Shown here in pieces: positions 12,961 through 18,254 of a DNA stretch of 64,000 bases. A program made the translations under genes and the position numbers. The first letter of the stretch is position 1. Each line of letters opens with the position of its first letter. Origin of the DNA: Pelagibacteraceae bacterium AG-439-F23 (lineage in GTDB: Bacteria; Pseudomonadota; Alphaproteobacteria; Pelagibacterales; Pelagibacteraceae); contig QCPT01000002.1 in assembly GCA_003212415.1 (NCBI GenBank), positions 1 through 64,000 of the forward strand, read 5' to 3'. The notes beneath the pieces are model-generated. The model was not told the origin of the DNA. It saw nothing but the letters and a program-made list of their open reading frames with translations, and did not search any database.

Positions 12961-13030
12961 GGGCTAATTTTTTAATTATTTAGCACTTTTTTAAGTGTTT
13001 CCTTGTAAAATTTTTGATCAATAATAAATT

Positions 13031-14908
13031 ATGACTATGAAAAATGATTTATCATTTGATGTTGTTGTAATAGGAGGAGGTCATGCAGGTTGTGAAGCTG
13101 CTGCAGCAGCAGCAAGGCTAGGAGTTAATACAGCTCTTTTTACTCACAAGTTCGAGACAATTGGAGAAATGTCTTGTAACCCTGCAATAGGAGGTTTGGG
13201 CAAAGGTCATCTTGTTAGAGAGATAGATGCATTAGACGGTGTAATGGGAGACGTTGCTGACAAATCAGGTATACAATTTCGCTTATTGAATAGAAGTAGA
13301 GGGCCAGCCGTACGAGGACCACGTACCCAAAGTGATAGATCCTTATATAAGAAATATATGCAAGAAAAACTTGTAAACTACTGTAATTTAAGGATATTTT
13401 CAGATCCTGTAATTAAGTTTAATTTTAAAAATAATGAAATAAATGGCTTTATAACTGAAAGTGGAAAAGAAATAAAATCAACCAAGATTATTCTAACAAC
13501 TGGAACTTTTTTGAATGGTTTAATACATATAGGTGAAGAAATGACTCCTGCTGGAAGATATAATGAAAAACCTTCAACTGGCTTAAGCGAACAACTAAAA
13601 AAATATAATTTTAAAATTGGTAGACTTAAAACTGGAACACCTCCAAGACTAGATTCTCGAACAATAAATTTTGAAATTCTTGAAGAACAGTATGCAGATA
13701 AAGATCCATATTTTTTTTCTTTCCTAACTAAAAAAAATATAAATAAACAAATCTCATGCAGGATAACTTATACTAATGAAGCTGTTCATAAAATTATTTC
13801 TAAAAATATAAAACGCAGTGCCATGTACTCAGGAAGCATACAAGGAGTTGGTCCAAGATATTGTCCATCAATAGAAGATAAAATTTTTAAATTTGCTGAC
13901 AAACAAAAGCATCAAATATTTCTAGAACCTGAGGGCTTAAATAACAATACAATATACCCAAATGGTATCTCAACTTCACTACCAGAAGAGGTACAACAAG
14001 AAATATGTAACAAAATCAATGGTTTAGAGAATGTAAAAATATTAAGGCCTGGATATGCTATAGAATACGATTTTGTTGACCCTAGAGAGCTATTTTTAAC
14101 TTTAGAGACTAAAAAAATTAAAAATTTTTATCTTGCAGGTCAAATTAATGGAACTACAGGATATGAAGAGGCTGCTGCTCAGGGTCTTATAGCAGGTATT
14201 AATGCTGCACTTGCAGTTAAAAATAAAGAACCTTTTATATTAGACAGATCAGAAGCCTACATAGGAGTTATGATAGATGATCTTGTAACCAAAGGAGTTG
14301 CTGAGCCTTATAGAATGTTTACATCAAGGGCTGAATATAGATTGTCTTTAAGATCTGATAATGCAGATATTAGACTTACTAAAAAAGGAATAGATATAGG
14401 CCTAGTATCAAAAGACAGAAAAACTATATATGAGGAAAAATCAAAAAATCTTAAAAAAACACAGATAAAAATGGAAAAATTATTGATAACTCCATCAAAA
14501 GTTTCTAATTATGGGATAAAAATATCAAAAGATGGAGTTAAAAGAACTGCAATTCAAATATTAAGCCAAAAATCAGTAAATATGAATAAAATTAGAAAAA
14601 TATGGCCTGAAATCACTTATGTTTCACGTGAAATAGATGAACAAATAGAGATTAATTCACATTATAAAGGTTATCTTAAAAAGCAAAATTCTGATATAAT
14701 TGCCTTTAAGAGAGATGAAAATTTAATTATTCCTGAAAATTTAAACTATGATGAATTTTCTGGGCTCTCAAACGAAGTAAAATCAAAATTTAAGCAAATT
14801 AAACCTAAAACAATGGGGCAAGCCCTAAGAATTGATGGAATCACCCCCGCCGCTGTATATATTTTGTTGTCTCATCTTAAAAGAAAGTCTATTAAGCATA
14901 TAGCTTGA
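13031..14908 (+). CDS. mnmG: tRNA uridine-5-carboxymethylaminomethyl modification enzyme MnmG
   Basis: FAD-dependent partner of MnmE. The dinucleotide-binding motif [21 protein letters not shown] is near the N-terminus, [30 protein letters not shown] is the GidA signature, and [24 protein letters not shown] is the second signature. Length 625 aa is normal. The segment coding YVSREIDE near the 3' end contains a near-perfect parS site. The stop overlaps the rsmG start by four bases (TTGA, with TTG as rsmG start). Confidence 0.98.
14620..14635. promoter_or_regulatory. parS-like site inside mnmG (one mismatch)
   Basis: TGTTTCACGTGAAATA differs from the parS palindrome TGTTTCACGTGAAACA only at position 15. 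It lies 1.8 kb upstream of parB and about 8 kb from oriC. Confidence 0.75.
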
Positions 14909-15639
14909 TTGATTCTAATTTTATAAAAAATACTGATATTAATATCTCAAATGTTTCACGTGAAACATTAAAAGAGCTAGATGACTATGGTAAGTCCATA
15001 ATTTCAAAAAATAAAAACATAAACTTAATAAGTTCAAGCACTGAAAAATTAATAAATACAAGACATATATTAGATAGTGCACAAACTATTGATTTTATTG
15101 ATAATATCAAATTAAAGACATGTACAGACCTAGGATCAGGTGCTGGTCTACCTGGTATAGTTTTAGCTATATTAATGAAACACAAAAACCCCCAATTTAA
15201 GGTGATTCTTTACGAAAAGAGCTATCACAAGAGCAAATTCTTAACTGATATGTCAAAAAAATTTAATTTGAACACAGAAGTCTATCAAAAAAATATTTTT
15301 GAAGAAAAAAATTTAAGTACAGATGTAATTATTTGTCGTGCTTTTAAACCTTTGCCAATTATTTTTGAAATTGCTCAGAAAAATTTTAAAAGTTTTAAAT
15401 ACATAATTTTATTTTTAGGAAAAAGTAGAAAAAAAATTTTGAATGAAGCACTTAAGAACTGGAAATTTGATTATGAAGAAAAAAAAAGTTTAACAAATGA
15501 TGAGTCGATAGTTATTAAGATTTCTAATTTGAAAAAAAAAATGGATAAAAAAATTATTTCAATCATAAATCAAAAAGGTGGAGTAGTCGAGTCAACAACT
15601 AAGACCAATCTCGCTGCTTTGAGAAAAAAAAATGGATAA
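14905..15639 (+). CDS. rsmG: 16S rRNA (guanine-527-N7) methyltransferase RsmG, with a ParA-derived C-terminal tail
   Basis: SAM-dependent methyltransferase acting on G527 of 16S rRNA. The SAM loop is [18 protein letters not shown] (about residues 72-89), and [14 protein letters not shown] near the N-terminus is typical. TTG start, overlapping mnmG by four bases. The normal protein should end at about residue 212; here it runs on for 32 residues starting [14 protein letters not shown], an in-frame decayed copy of the ParA N-terminus. One base fewer in the A-tract before 15541 explains the read-through (see direct repeat). Core enzyme appears intact; the tail is probably an accident and may be neutral. 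Confidence 0.93.
14952..14967. promoter_or_regulatory. parS site inside rsmG (perfect)
   Basis: TGTTTCACGTGAAACA is the exact ParB-binding consensus. It is read in the rsmG frame as part of NVSRETL, an N-terminal RsmG segment that accommodates parS in other bacteria as well. Confidence 0.93.
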
Positions 15640-15709
15640 AAAAATTATTTCAATCATAAATCAAAAAGGTGGAGTAGGAAAGACAACAACTGTGATCAAT
15701 CTTGCTGCT
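15541..15709 (+). repeat. Imperfect 91-bp-period duplication of the parA 5' end
   Basis: The segment starting at 15541 (ATGGATAAAAAAATT) recurs at 15632, the parA start. The first 46 bases are identical; the next 32 differ at 8 places by direct alignment; both copies end in CTGCT. The lead-in also recurs (TTTGAAAAAA... and TTTGAGAAAA...). The upstream copy encodes KGGVVESTT where ParA has KGGVGKTTT, so its ATP-binding Lys and Gly are lost. It is a fossil or a sequencing/assembly product, not a second ParA. Confidence 0.93.
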
Positions 15710-16432
15710 GGATTGTCTATGAAAGGAAAAAAAATTTTAGTAATTGACTTAGATCCACAAGGAAATGCTACTACCGGTCTAGGATTGTCTAACAGTGCAA
15801 GCTCGGACACTACAATTTATAGTGTGCTTAATGGAAATAAGAAAATTTCAGAAGTGATCCAGAATACAAGCTTTGAAAATTTAAATTTGATATCTTCGAA
15901 TGTAAATTTGTCCGGTCTAGAGGTTGAAACTGCTGGAGACAGTCGTAGAGCCTTTAAATTAAAGGACGAATTGACCTATATTTTAAATGATTCTAGAGCT
16001 TCATATGATTATATTCTAATAGATTGTCCTCCATCTTTGAGCTTACTGACAATTATGGCATTGGTAGCTTCAGATGCTCTAGTGGTACCACTGCAAACGG
16101 AATTTTTTGCTCTAGAAGGACTTACTCAACTCATGAAGACAATTGAAAGGATAAAAAATAATCTTAATCCAGAACTATCAATCAGAGGGATCCTTTTGAC
16201 AATGTATGATAGACGAAACAAGCTTTCAGGAGAAGTAGAGAATGAAGCAAGAAATTATTTTAAAGAAAAAGTCTACCAATCAGTGGTTCCAAGAAATGTT
16301 AGACTATCCGAAGCCCCTTCCCATGGAGTTCCAGTATTAATTTATGATAAAGGTTGTCCTGGAAGCAAATCATATTTTAGTTTTACAGAAGAATTTTTAA
16401 ATCAAGATAAACCAGTGGAGAGCGCAGCATGA
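15632..16432 (+). CDS. parA: Chromosome partitioning ATPase ParA (Soj)
   Basis: Dimeric ATPase that moves ParB-parS complexes. The deviant Walker A is KGGVGKTT at residues 11-18, Walker A' is VIDLDPQGNATTGLG and Walker B is YDYILIDCPPSL. Length 266 aa. The start at 15632 is the copy with an intact P-loop; the ATG 91 bases upstream belongs to the decayed duplicate and reads in another frame. It overlaps the rsmG stop by eight bases and parB by four (ATGA). With parB and two parS sites it forms a complete origin-segregation set. Confidence 0.97.
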   Translation: MDKKIISIINQKGGVGKTTTVINLAAGLSMKGKKILVIDLDPQGNATTGLGLSNSASSDTTIYSVLNGNKKISEVIQNTSFENLNLISSNVNLSGLEVETAGDSRRAFKLKDELTYILNDSRASYDYILIDCPPSLSLLTIMALVASDALVVPLQTEFFALEGLTQLMKTIERIKNNLNPELSIRGILLTMYDRRNKLSGEVENEARNYFKEKVYQSVVPRNVRLSEAPSHGVPVLIYDKGCPGSKSYFSFTEEFLNQDKPVESAA

Positions 16433-17280
16433 TTAATCCTTTTAAAACGAAGAAAGGCCTAGGAAGGGGACTTTCATCTCTTATAGGAGATAGTGAAGTT
16501 AAAGAAAACAAAACTACAATTTCTATTAGTTCTATAATTAGAAACAAATATCAACCAAGAAAAAAATTTGAAAAAGAAAGCTTAGAAGAATTAACTAGTT
16601 CTATTAAAGAAAGAGGAATCATACAACCAATAATAGTAAGAAAATCAGATGATATAATTGATAAGTTTGAAATAGTAGCTGGAGAAAGAAGATGGCAAGC
16701 CGCGCAAAAAGCAGGACTTCATAAAGTTCCAGTAGTAGTTATAGAAGCCGATAATTTAAAATCTCTAGAATTTGCTATAGTTGAAAATGTTCAAAGAAAA
16801 GATTTAAACCCGATAGAAGAAGCCGAAGGATATAAAAGACTAATAGATGATTTTAATTATGATCAAGAAAAAGTTGCAAAATTTATAGGAAAAAGTAGAG
16901 CTCATGTTTCTAATTGTTTAAGATTATTAAGTTTACCTCAAAAAATAATCGAATACATAATTGACGAAAAAATATCCCAAGGACATGCAAAAATTTTGGT
17001 AGGCTTGGAAAATGCTCAATTATTAGCTGAAAAGATAATTTCTAAAAAGTTATCAGTAAGGCAAGCTGAAGCACTTATTAGAATTACTAAAGGAATTAAA
17101 TCAATTAATAAAAACAGCAAAGATTCTAATATACTTGATATTGAAAATCAGCTAATGGAAAAAATTGGAATGAGGGTTTATGTTAACAATAAAAAAAACA
17201 ACTCAGGAACAATTGCTTTTGAGTACAAAGGCTTAGATCAGATGGAAAGATTAATCCAAGTTATTAAAAATAATTATTAA
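16429..17280 (+). CDS. parB: Chromosome partitioning protein ParB (Spo0J)
   Basis: parS-binding CTP-dependent clamp that loads near the origin. The N-terminal ParA-stimulating segment is KKGLGRGLSSLIGD, followed by ISSIIRNKYQPRKKF, the CTP-binding region around VAGERRWQAAQKAGL and VENVQRKDLNPIEEA, and the helix-turn-helix in KFIGKSRAHVSNCLRLLSLP. Length 283 aa is normal. The C-terminal dimer domain follows. Its stop shares TTAA with the stop of holA on the opposite strand. Confidence 0.97.
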   Translation: MINPFKTKKGLGRGLSSLIGDSEVKENKTTISISSIIRNKYQPRKKFEKESLEELTSSIKERGIIQPIIVRKSDDIIDKFEIVAGERRWQAAQKAGLHKVPVVVIEADNLKSLEFAIVENVQRKDLNPIEEAEGYKRLIDDFNYDQEKVAKFIGKSRAHVSNCLRLLSLPQKIIEYIIDEKISQGHAKILVGLENAQLLAEKIISKKLSVRQAEALIRITKGIKSINKNSKDSNILDIENQLMEKIGMRVYVNNKKNNSGTIAFEYKGLDQMERLIQVIKNNY

Positions 17281-18254
17281 TAATTGCTTACAAAATCTGA
17301 AACAAAATTTAATGAATTGTTATTATTTTTCTTAACTAAAATTTCAAGGTCATTTATTTTATAAATCATTTCTTTTACCTCGCCATCTGACCATGATTGT
17401 ATTTGTTTTTTTACAACATCTTTTTCTTTCCAAAATATTGGAGGTTTAAAAGAAGATATAGTTAAATCAATATTTCCAGTTTGATTTTGAATTTCTTTGA
17501 GTTTAAGAAGTCTTTTTGATCTATTTAATATTGTTCTTAATATTAAAACACATTCATCATTTCCAAAATTATTTTCATTTAATATTTTTGAAACTTGTTT
17601 TTTATTTTTAGCTAAATAATTTTCTGCAAGCTCAAAAACACTATAATTTTCTGATAAATTAGTTAATTTTAAAACATCTTCTATATCAATGTTTCTTTTT
17701 GTTATTGATAGGTTGTCAATTTTATTTAACTCGTTAATTAAATTTCCTCTATCTCCTCTTGATCTCCCTATTAGTAAATTTATGATTTCTTGTGAAACAC
17801 TAATTTTTTTTTGTCTGAAAAAATTTTGAGCTATTAAACTTAAACTCTTATCATTATCATCATAAAAAGGTATACAAGTAAGCTCTTTTTCCTTTTCAAA
17901 TAAATTTCTTAATTTAGATTTCTTTTCTAAATTATTAGAATTAATAATAATTGTTATTTTTTCTATTTTTCTTTCTATAATTTCATTAACAAATTTAATA
18001 ATTTTATCGCTTGCTCTAGAAATTATTATTAATTTATCATCATCAAAAAGAGATTTATTCATTAAATTTGAAATAAATTCATCTTGATCATTTAATATTT
18101 CATTCTCTTCAAATCTTAAAACTTCCCCTTTGAATAGTTTTTCAAAGCATTCTTTTACTATTTGGTTTTTGTAACCTTGATTTGTTCCGTAGATAAGAGT
18201 TAAACTATTTTTTTTTGATTTTATTTTTTCTATTTCAAATGATTTAATTATCAT
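17277..18254 (-). CDS. holA: DNA polymerase III delta subunit
   Basis: Clamp-loader subunit that opens the beta clamp. The protein (325 aa) has the HolA layout: N-terminal strand and P-loop-like region (SLTLIYGTNQGYKNQIVKE), a middle domain with LLIGRSRGDRGNLINELNKI at about 165-184, and a helical C-terminal collar domain (ILRTILNRSKRLLKLKEI). The sequence is divergent and lysine-rich; recognition rests on these motifs plus the conserved alphaproteobacterial order parB-holA-lptE-leuS. It overlaps lptE by 11 bp. Confidence 0.88.
   Translation of the reverse strand: MIIKSFEIEKIKSKKNSLTLIYGTNQGYKNQIVKECFEKLFKGEVLRFEENEILNDQDEFISNLMNKSLFDDDKLIIISRASDKIIKFVNEIIERKIEKITIIINSNNLEKKSKLRNLFEKEKELTCIPFYDDNDKSLSLIAQNFFRQKKISVSQEIINLLIGRSRGDRGNLINELNKIDNLSITKRNIDIEDVLKLTNLSENYSVFELAENYLAKNKKQVSKILNENNFGNDECVLILRTILNRSKRLLKLKEIQNQTGNIDLTISSFKPPIFWKEKDVVKKQIQSWSDGEVKEMIYKINDLEILVKKNNNNSLNFVSDFVSNY

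Follow-up and report, generated by a model that had tools for sequence, protein, structure and literature searches.

The rsmG/parA junction of Pelagibacteraceae bacterium AG-439-F23 carries the 5' end of parA twice, and rsmG runs in frame through the first, decaying copy to end at the start of the second. The history that we favor, with a probability of roughly 0.82, is a single 91-bp duplication, neutral decay of the upstream copy, and then the loss of one A in the lineage of this genome that fused rsmG to the copy. The DNA analyzed, called the window below, is a 64,000-nt stretch of contig QCPT01000002.1 from a draft genome (1.08 Mb in 41 contigs, 76% complete) whose nearest named relatives are uncultured Pelagibacteraceae (SAR11), mostly with AG- cell names. 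Coordinates refer to the window, and the features at and around the junction are as follows.

14905..15639, + strand: rsmG (gidB), TTG start, 244 aa (ORF list; Pfam GidB, NCBIfam rsmG_gidB)
15532..15541, + strand: A10 run, the site of the putative one-base loss; AG-461-B18 and the downstream copy each have 11 nt between TTTG and TGG
15533..15618, + strand: upstream, decaying copy of the parA start, with its ATG at 15541 (repeat search, comparison with AG-461-B18)
15546-15548, + strand: ancestral rsmG stop TAA inside the upstream copy, now out of frame
15619..15623, + strand: TTGAG between the copies, derived from sequence upstream of the ancestral A-run; the AG-461-B18 junction is alike
15624..15709, + strand: downstream copy, the true parA start with Walker A intact (ORF list, repeat search)
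15632..15639, + strand: ATGGATAA, where the rsmG stop and the parA start share 8 nt, the arrangement most frequent in relatives
15632..16432, + strand: parA, 266 aa (ORF list, Pfam)
16429..17280, + strand: parB, 283 aa (ORF list, Pfam, NCBIfam)

A repeat search of the window recovered the two copies at 91% identity over 86 nt, with a start-to-start spacing of 91 nt, in agreement with the doubled parA start and 91-bp period described in the first-pass annotation. Aligned from their ATGs (15541 and 15632), the copies agree without exception over 46 nt, and 8 of the next 32 positions differ, exactly the counts given there. The loss of the P-loop was likewise confirmed, the upstream copy encoding KGGVVESTT where the true parA has KGGVGKTTT. 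As adjacent direct copies with alignable ends, the pair constitutes a partial tandem gene duplication. The downstream gene has the features of a chromosomal parA, namely, an intact Walker A motif, an AAA_31 domain, and parB as its neighbor.

The same duplication was found in a second single-cell genome, AG-461-B18, which matches the window across the whole region and is about 86% identical to it, a value taken from matched genes within 40 kb. Four of our junction loci are this one genome and were counted once. In sequence searches of relatives, AG-461-B18 alone exceeded 90% identity over the whole region. Its period (91 nt) and right-hand junction (GCTTTGAGAAAAAAAAATGG) agree with those of the window, and its rsmG and parA are 83 nt apart; its upstream copy, which has decayed independently, differs from that of the window at 14 of 78 bases, and the two upstream copies have in common a change of the Walker lysine codon from AAG to GAG. 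The check proposed at the outset, comparison of the junction in close relatives, thus revealed the duplication in AG-461-B18 and its absence from AG-404-N13, where rsmG and parA simply overlap by 8 nt without a copy. In a tree of RsmG and ParA from which the junction was left out, the window pairs with AG-461-B18 (SH-aLRT 91), and the two are nested with AG-404-N13 in a 99% clade. The duplication is therefore distributed as a property of a defined group, the window and AG-461-B18, and is missing from the next outgroup as well as from almost every other relative. Patterns for a tandem parA start, run over 397 genus and 367 family genomes (overlapping sets), matched only AG-461-B18 and the window, once each; one pattern caught the former and the other the latter, and strongly decayed copies can escape either.

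These comparisons bear on the earlier caveat that the entire duplicate is an artefact of assembly or whole-genome amplification. Its perfect identity is confined to the 5' part and the genome is a draft, as such an origin would allow, but the artefact would have had to strike twice, at the same breakpoints and with different sequence. Because a second genome has those breakpoints and different bases in its copy, we consider an artefact excluded for the duplication and give that explanation almost no weight. Judged by the comparison of the two genomes, the 91-bp duplication is real and older than the window genome.

The fusion turns on one base. Between TTTG and TGG there are 10 nt in the upstream copy of the window and 11 nt in the first copy of AG-461-B18 (A9TA), as also in the downstream copies and in the junction of an outgroup, L119 (both AGA9). 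An A-run shorter by one had been claimed, which holds for this stretch; the literal runs are A10 upstream and AG followed by A9 downstream, a refinement of the claim as worded. It had also been proposed that rsmG would stop at the hidden TAA if the extra base were present, and AG-461-B18 has both the 11-nt stretch and that stop. Its rsmG keeps the ancestral TAA, which makes the fusion a later event, a one-base loss confined to the lineage of the window, and the comparison bears out the proposed order of tandem duplication followed by homopolymer slip. The slip is a single-base change of run length polarized by relatives, with one draft assembly on the window side.

Alternatively, the duplication could be real and the missing base an error of sequencing, amplification, or assembly, in which case rsmG would still stop at the ancestral TAA. 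To this extent the artefact caveat survives: the genome is a fragmented and incomplete draft, and the run in question is A10 where its sister genome has the 11-nt version. Run-length errors nevertheless look rare here, because 40 of the 42 matched ORFs in the window are intact in a single frame despite about 34 other A/T runs of at least 9 nt inside ORFs, and we consider the error explanation unlikely. The one-base loss appears genuine, as read in the sequence of one draft assembly.

With the base lost, rsmG ends at the second TAA, within ATGGATAA of the true parA, which it once more overlaps by 8 nt. The read-through had been put at 32 extra codons; 32 codons do come from the copy, but the ancestral last two residues are replaced and the net gain is 30 residues. 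The window RsmG therefore joins the native fold to 30 additional residues encoded by the upstream copy of the parA start, 244 aa in all compared with about 214 aa in 20 relatives. The family matches (Pfam GidB, residues 23-197, above its curated cut-off; NCBIfam rsmG_gidB, residues 27-204) stop no later than residue 204, ahead of the extension, which is predicted to be disordered (AlphaFold2 pLDDT about 36-43). The frame has been kept open, as would be expected if the tail were a newly selected functional C-terminal segment. That explanation is very improbable, however, given that the tail occurs in one genome only, is predicted to be disordered, has lost the P-loop, and corresponds to sequence that varies freely in AG-461-B18. 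Probably, the RsmG tail has no function of its own.

The rates of change fit this picture of a remnant. The 14 differences between the two upstream copies amount to 0.18 per site, in comparison with 4 of 78 between the true parA starts and 32 of 154 (0.21) at the local four-fold sites of rsmG and parA in the same two genomes. By codon position the 14 fall 4/8/2, showing no third-position bias, and the residue is changed in 10 of the 11 altered codons. Because the upstream copy diverges at a near-synonymous rate and mostly by residue-changing differences, it has, on these rates, lost its role and is decaying neutrally. Selection to keep the 32-codon mini-ORF open was not significant (P = 0.39-0.51); the frame is open in both genomes, a possible sign of use, but it also stayed open in 39-51% of random-mutation simulations. 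The first 54 aligned bases of the two window copies are free of changes and all 8 differences follow them, a clustering with P = 2e-4 if changes were placed uniformly; in AG-461-B18 changes are spread throughout the upstream copy. This suggests that, in the window, a short gene conversion from the downstream copy reset the 5' half of the upstream one, a reading drawn from the change-free 54-nt tract and not from a transferred derived base. Conversion and base loss might have been the same event.

Junction spacing was compared across 117 distinct rsmG/parA loci, a sample skewed toward close relatives by the use of KKKMDKKI as one search pattern. Overlaps of 8 nt are the most common (73, including the window), followed by overlaps of 4 nt (20) and 1 nt (3); 2 junctions lie at 0 or +3 nt, so that 98 of the 117 fall between -8 and +3 nt, and the remaining 19, including AG-461-B18, have gaps of 20-104 nt. 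Since the spacing runs from -8 to +104 nt across relatives, a strict spacing requirement of the kind suggested for origin segregation seems unlikely.

In tested gene pairs from Escherichia coli and H. volcanii, reinitiation was nearly lost at gaps of about 20-38 nt (PMC10666635). Because reinitiation collapses over such gaps, the 83-nt gap in AG-461-B18 would break coupling unless ribosomes are relayed by the copy's own 32-codon mini-ORF, which shares 8 nt with each of its two neighbors, rsmG and parA. The fused rsmG of the window would restore the direct 8-nt overlap, which is geometry and not proof of coupling. One could accordingly suppose that the slip was favored, having restored the overlap and hence a translational coupling that the gap is expected to have broken; the fused end falls exactly at -8, in keeping with the spacings commonest among relatives and with the reinitiation experiments. 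We regard such selection as doubtful, since gaps of 20-104 nt are tolerated by 18 other distinct relatives, the mini-ORF could relay ribosomes without any slip, and an end at the second TAA is automatic once a base is lost at that spot. A further scenario is speculative and seems improbable to us: the duplicated overlap would have become a ribosome-relay mini-ORF, as in AG-461-B18, which the slip absorbed into rsmG in the window, recoupling parA. In long A runs RNA polymerase inserts extra bases, the more often the longer the run (PMC5574713). A share of the RsmG may thus retain the native length, and transcript slippage at A10 could, in that scenario, give both RsmG forms.

Several other junctions in this sample have features of their own. 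Thirteen loci form a separate SAR11 clade with very AT-rich rsmG-parA spacers of 44-104 nt, and in several of its members rsmG still stops at an ATG-like site (AAATGTTTAA and similar), as would follow from an earlier duplication of the overlap; parA similarity in the spacers of this clade was not above shuffles. Older decayed parA copies were sought more widely, in other SAR11 relatives with spacers of 28-104 nt, and rejected, similarity to the parA start again not exceeding shuffles (lowest fraction 0.058), whereas none of 500 shuffles reached that of the AG-461-B18 spacer. At one locus (L015), rsmG and parA share a frame with TAG directly followed by ATG between them, and read-through would yield an RsmG-ParA fusion of about 490 aa. 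At another (L073), an A-run frameshift shortens rsmG so that it ends KKV and leaves 48 nt between its stop and parA; here too, a homopolymer in the 3' portion of the gene has changed length.

Identity between the window and AG-461-B18 is mostly 90-95% over 13.5-17.5 kb, which includes most of mnmG and then rsmG-parA-parB, and 73-85% in the flanks; over much of mnmE and leuS, the AG-404-N13 lineage is as close to the window or closer. Because this high-identity island sits between divergent flanks, the block has its own, more recent common ancestry. Homologous recombination could have carried the duplication along with it, and such exchange is reported to be unusually promiscuous in SAR11, with mutS and mutL missing from the subclades studied (PMC12374537). 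The MutS_V and MutL models had no match in the window's draft genome, at 76% completeness, which agrees with those reports. As separate observations, positions 13000-17500 form a recombination mosaic around the segregation genes, and the 5' part of rsmG contains an exact consensus parS 16-mer, TGTTTCACGTGAAACA (14952-14967; 0.01 occurrences expected by chance), which encodes the invariant VSRET. A copy of this 16-mer with one mismatch lies in mnmG (14620-14635).

We therefore propose the following course for the favored history. The mnmG-rsmG-parA-parB block now common to the two genomes had an ancestor in which a single 91-bp tandem duplication copied the end of rsmG, the A-run, and about the first 78 nt of parA. 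The downstream copy was kept as the true parA start, while the upstream one fell out of use. In the assembled sequence of the window, and there alone, one A is missing from the upstream run, which brought rsmG into frame with the copy, gave RsmG its tail, and regained the overlap with parA. The absence of MutS and MutL would ease both slip and exchange.

The mutation types are ordinary and of kinds already known. Unidirectional overlaps have a standard origin in frameshifts that extend a gene end into its neighbor (Fonseca et al. 2013, PMC3887535), but here rsmG is extended through a second copy of that neighbor's start, and the old 8-nt overlap is repeated exactly. As in the decay of the small AT-rich genome of Buchnera (PMC3164680), a homopolymer indel shifts the frame and a pseudogene piece turns into spacer; unlike that case, the window comes from a free-living SAR11 bacterium, the fragment is 91 bp, and the gene was lengthened instead of broken. 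Like termination-reinitiation pairs (PMC10666635), in which -8 recurs in H. volcanii, rsmG and parA are codirected with an 8-nt stop/start overlap, a geometry that makes them a candidate for coupling. For annotators, the case is a warning that the long RsmG is no new domain architecture. The outgroup, intermediate, and derived states of a single overlapping junction are all represented here, which makes it a clean two-step example, from a streamlined genome, of how duplication of an overlap can separate two genes and a one-base slip can rejoin them.
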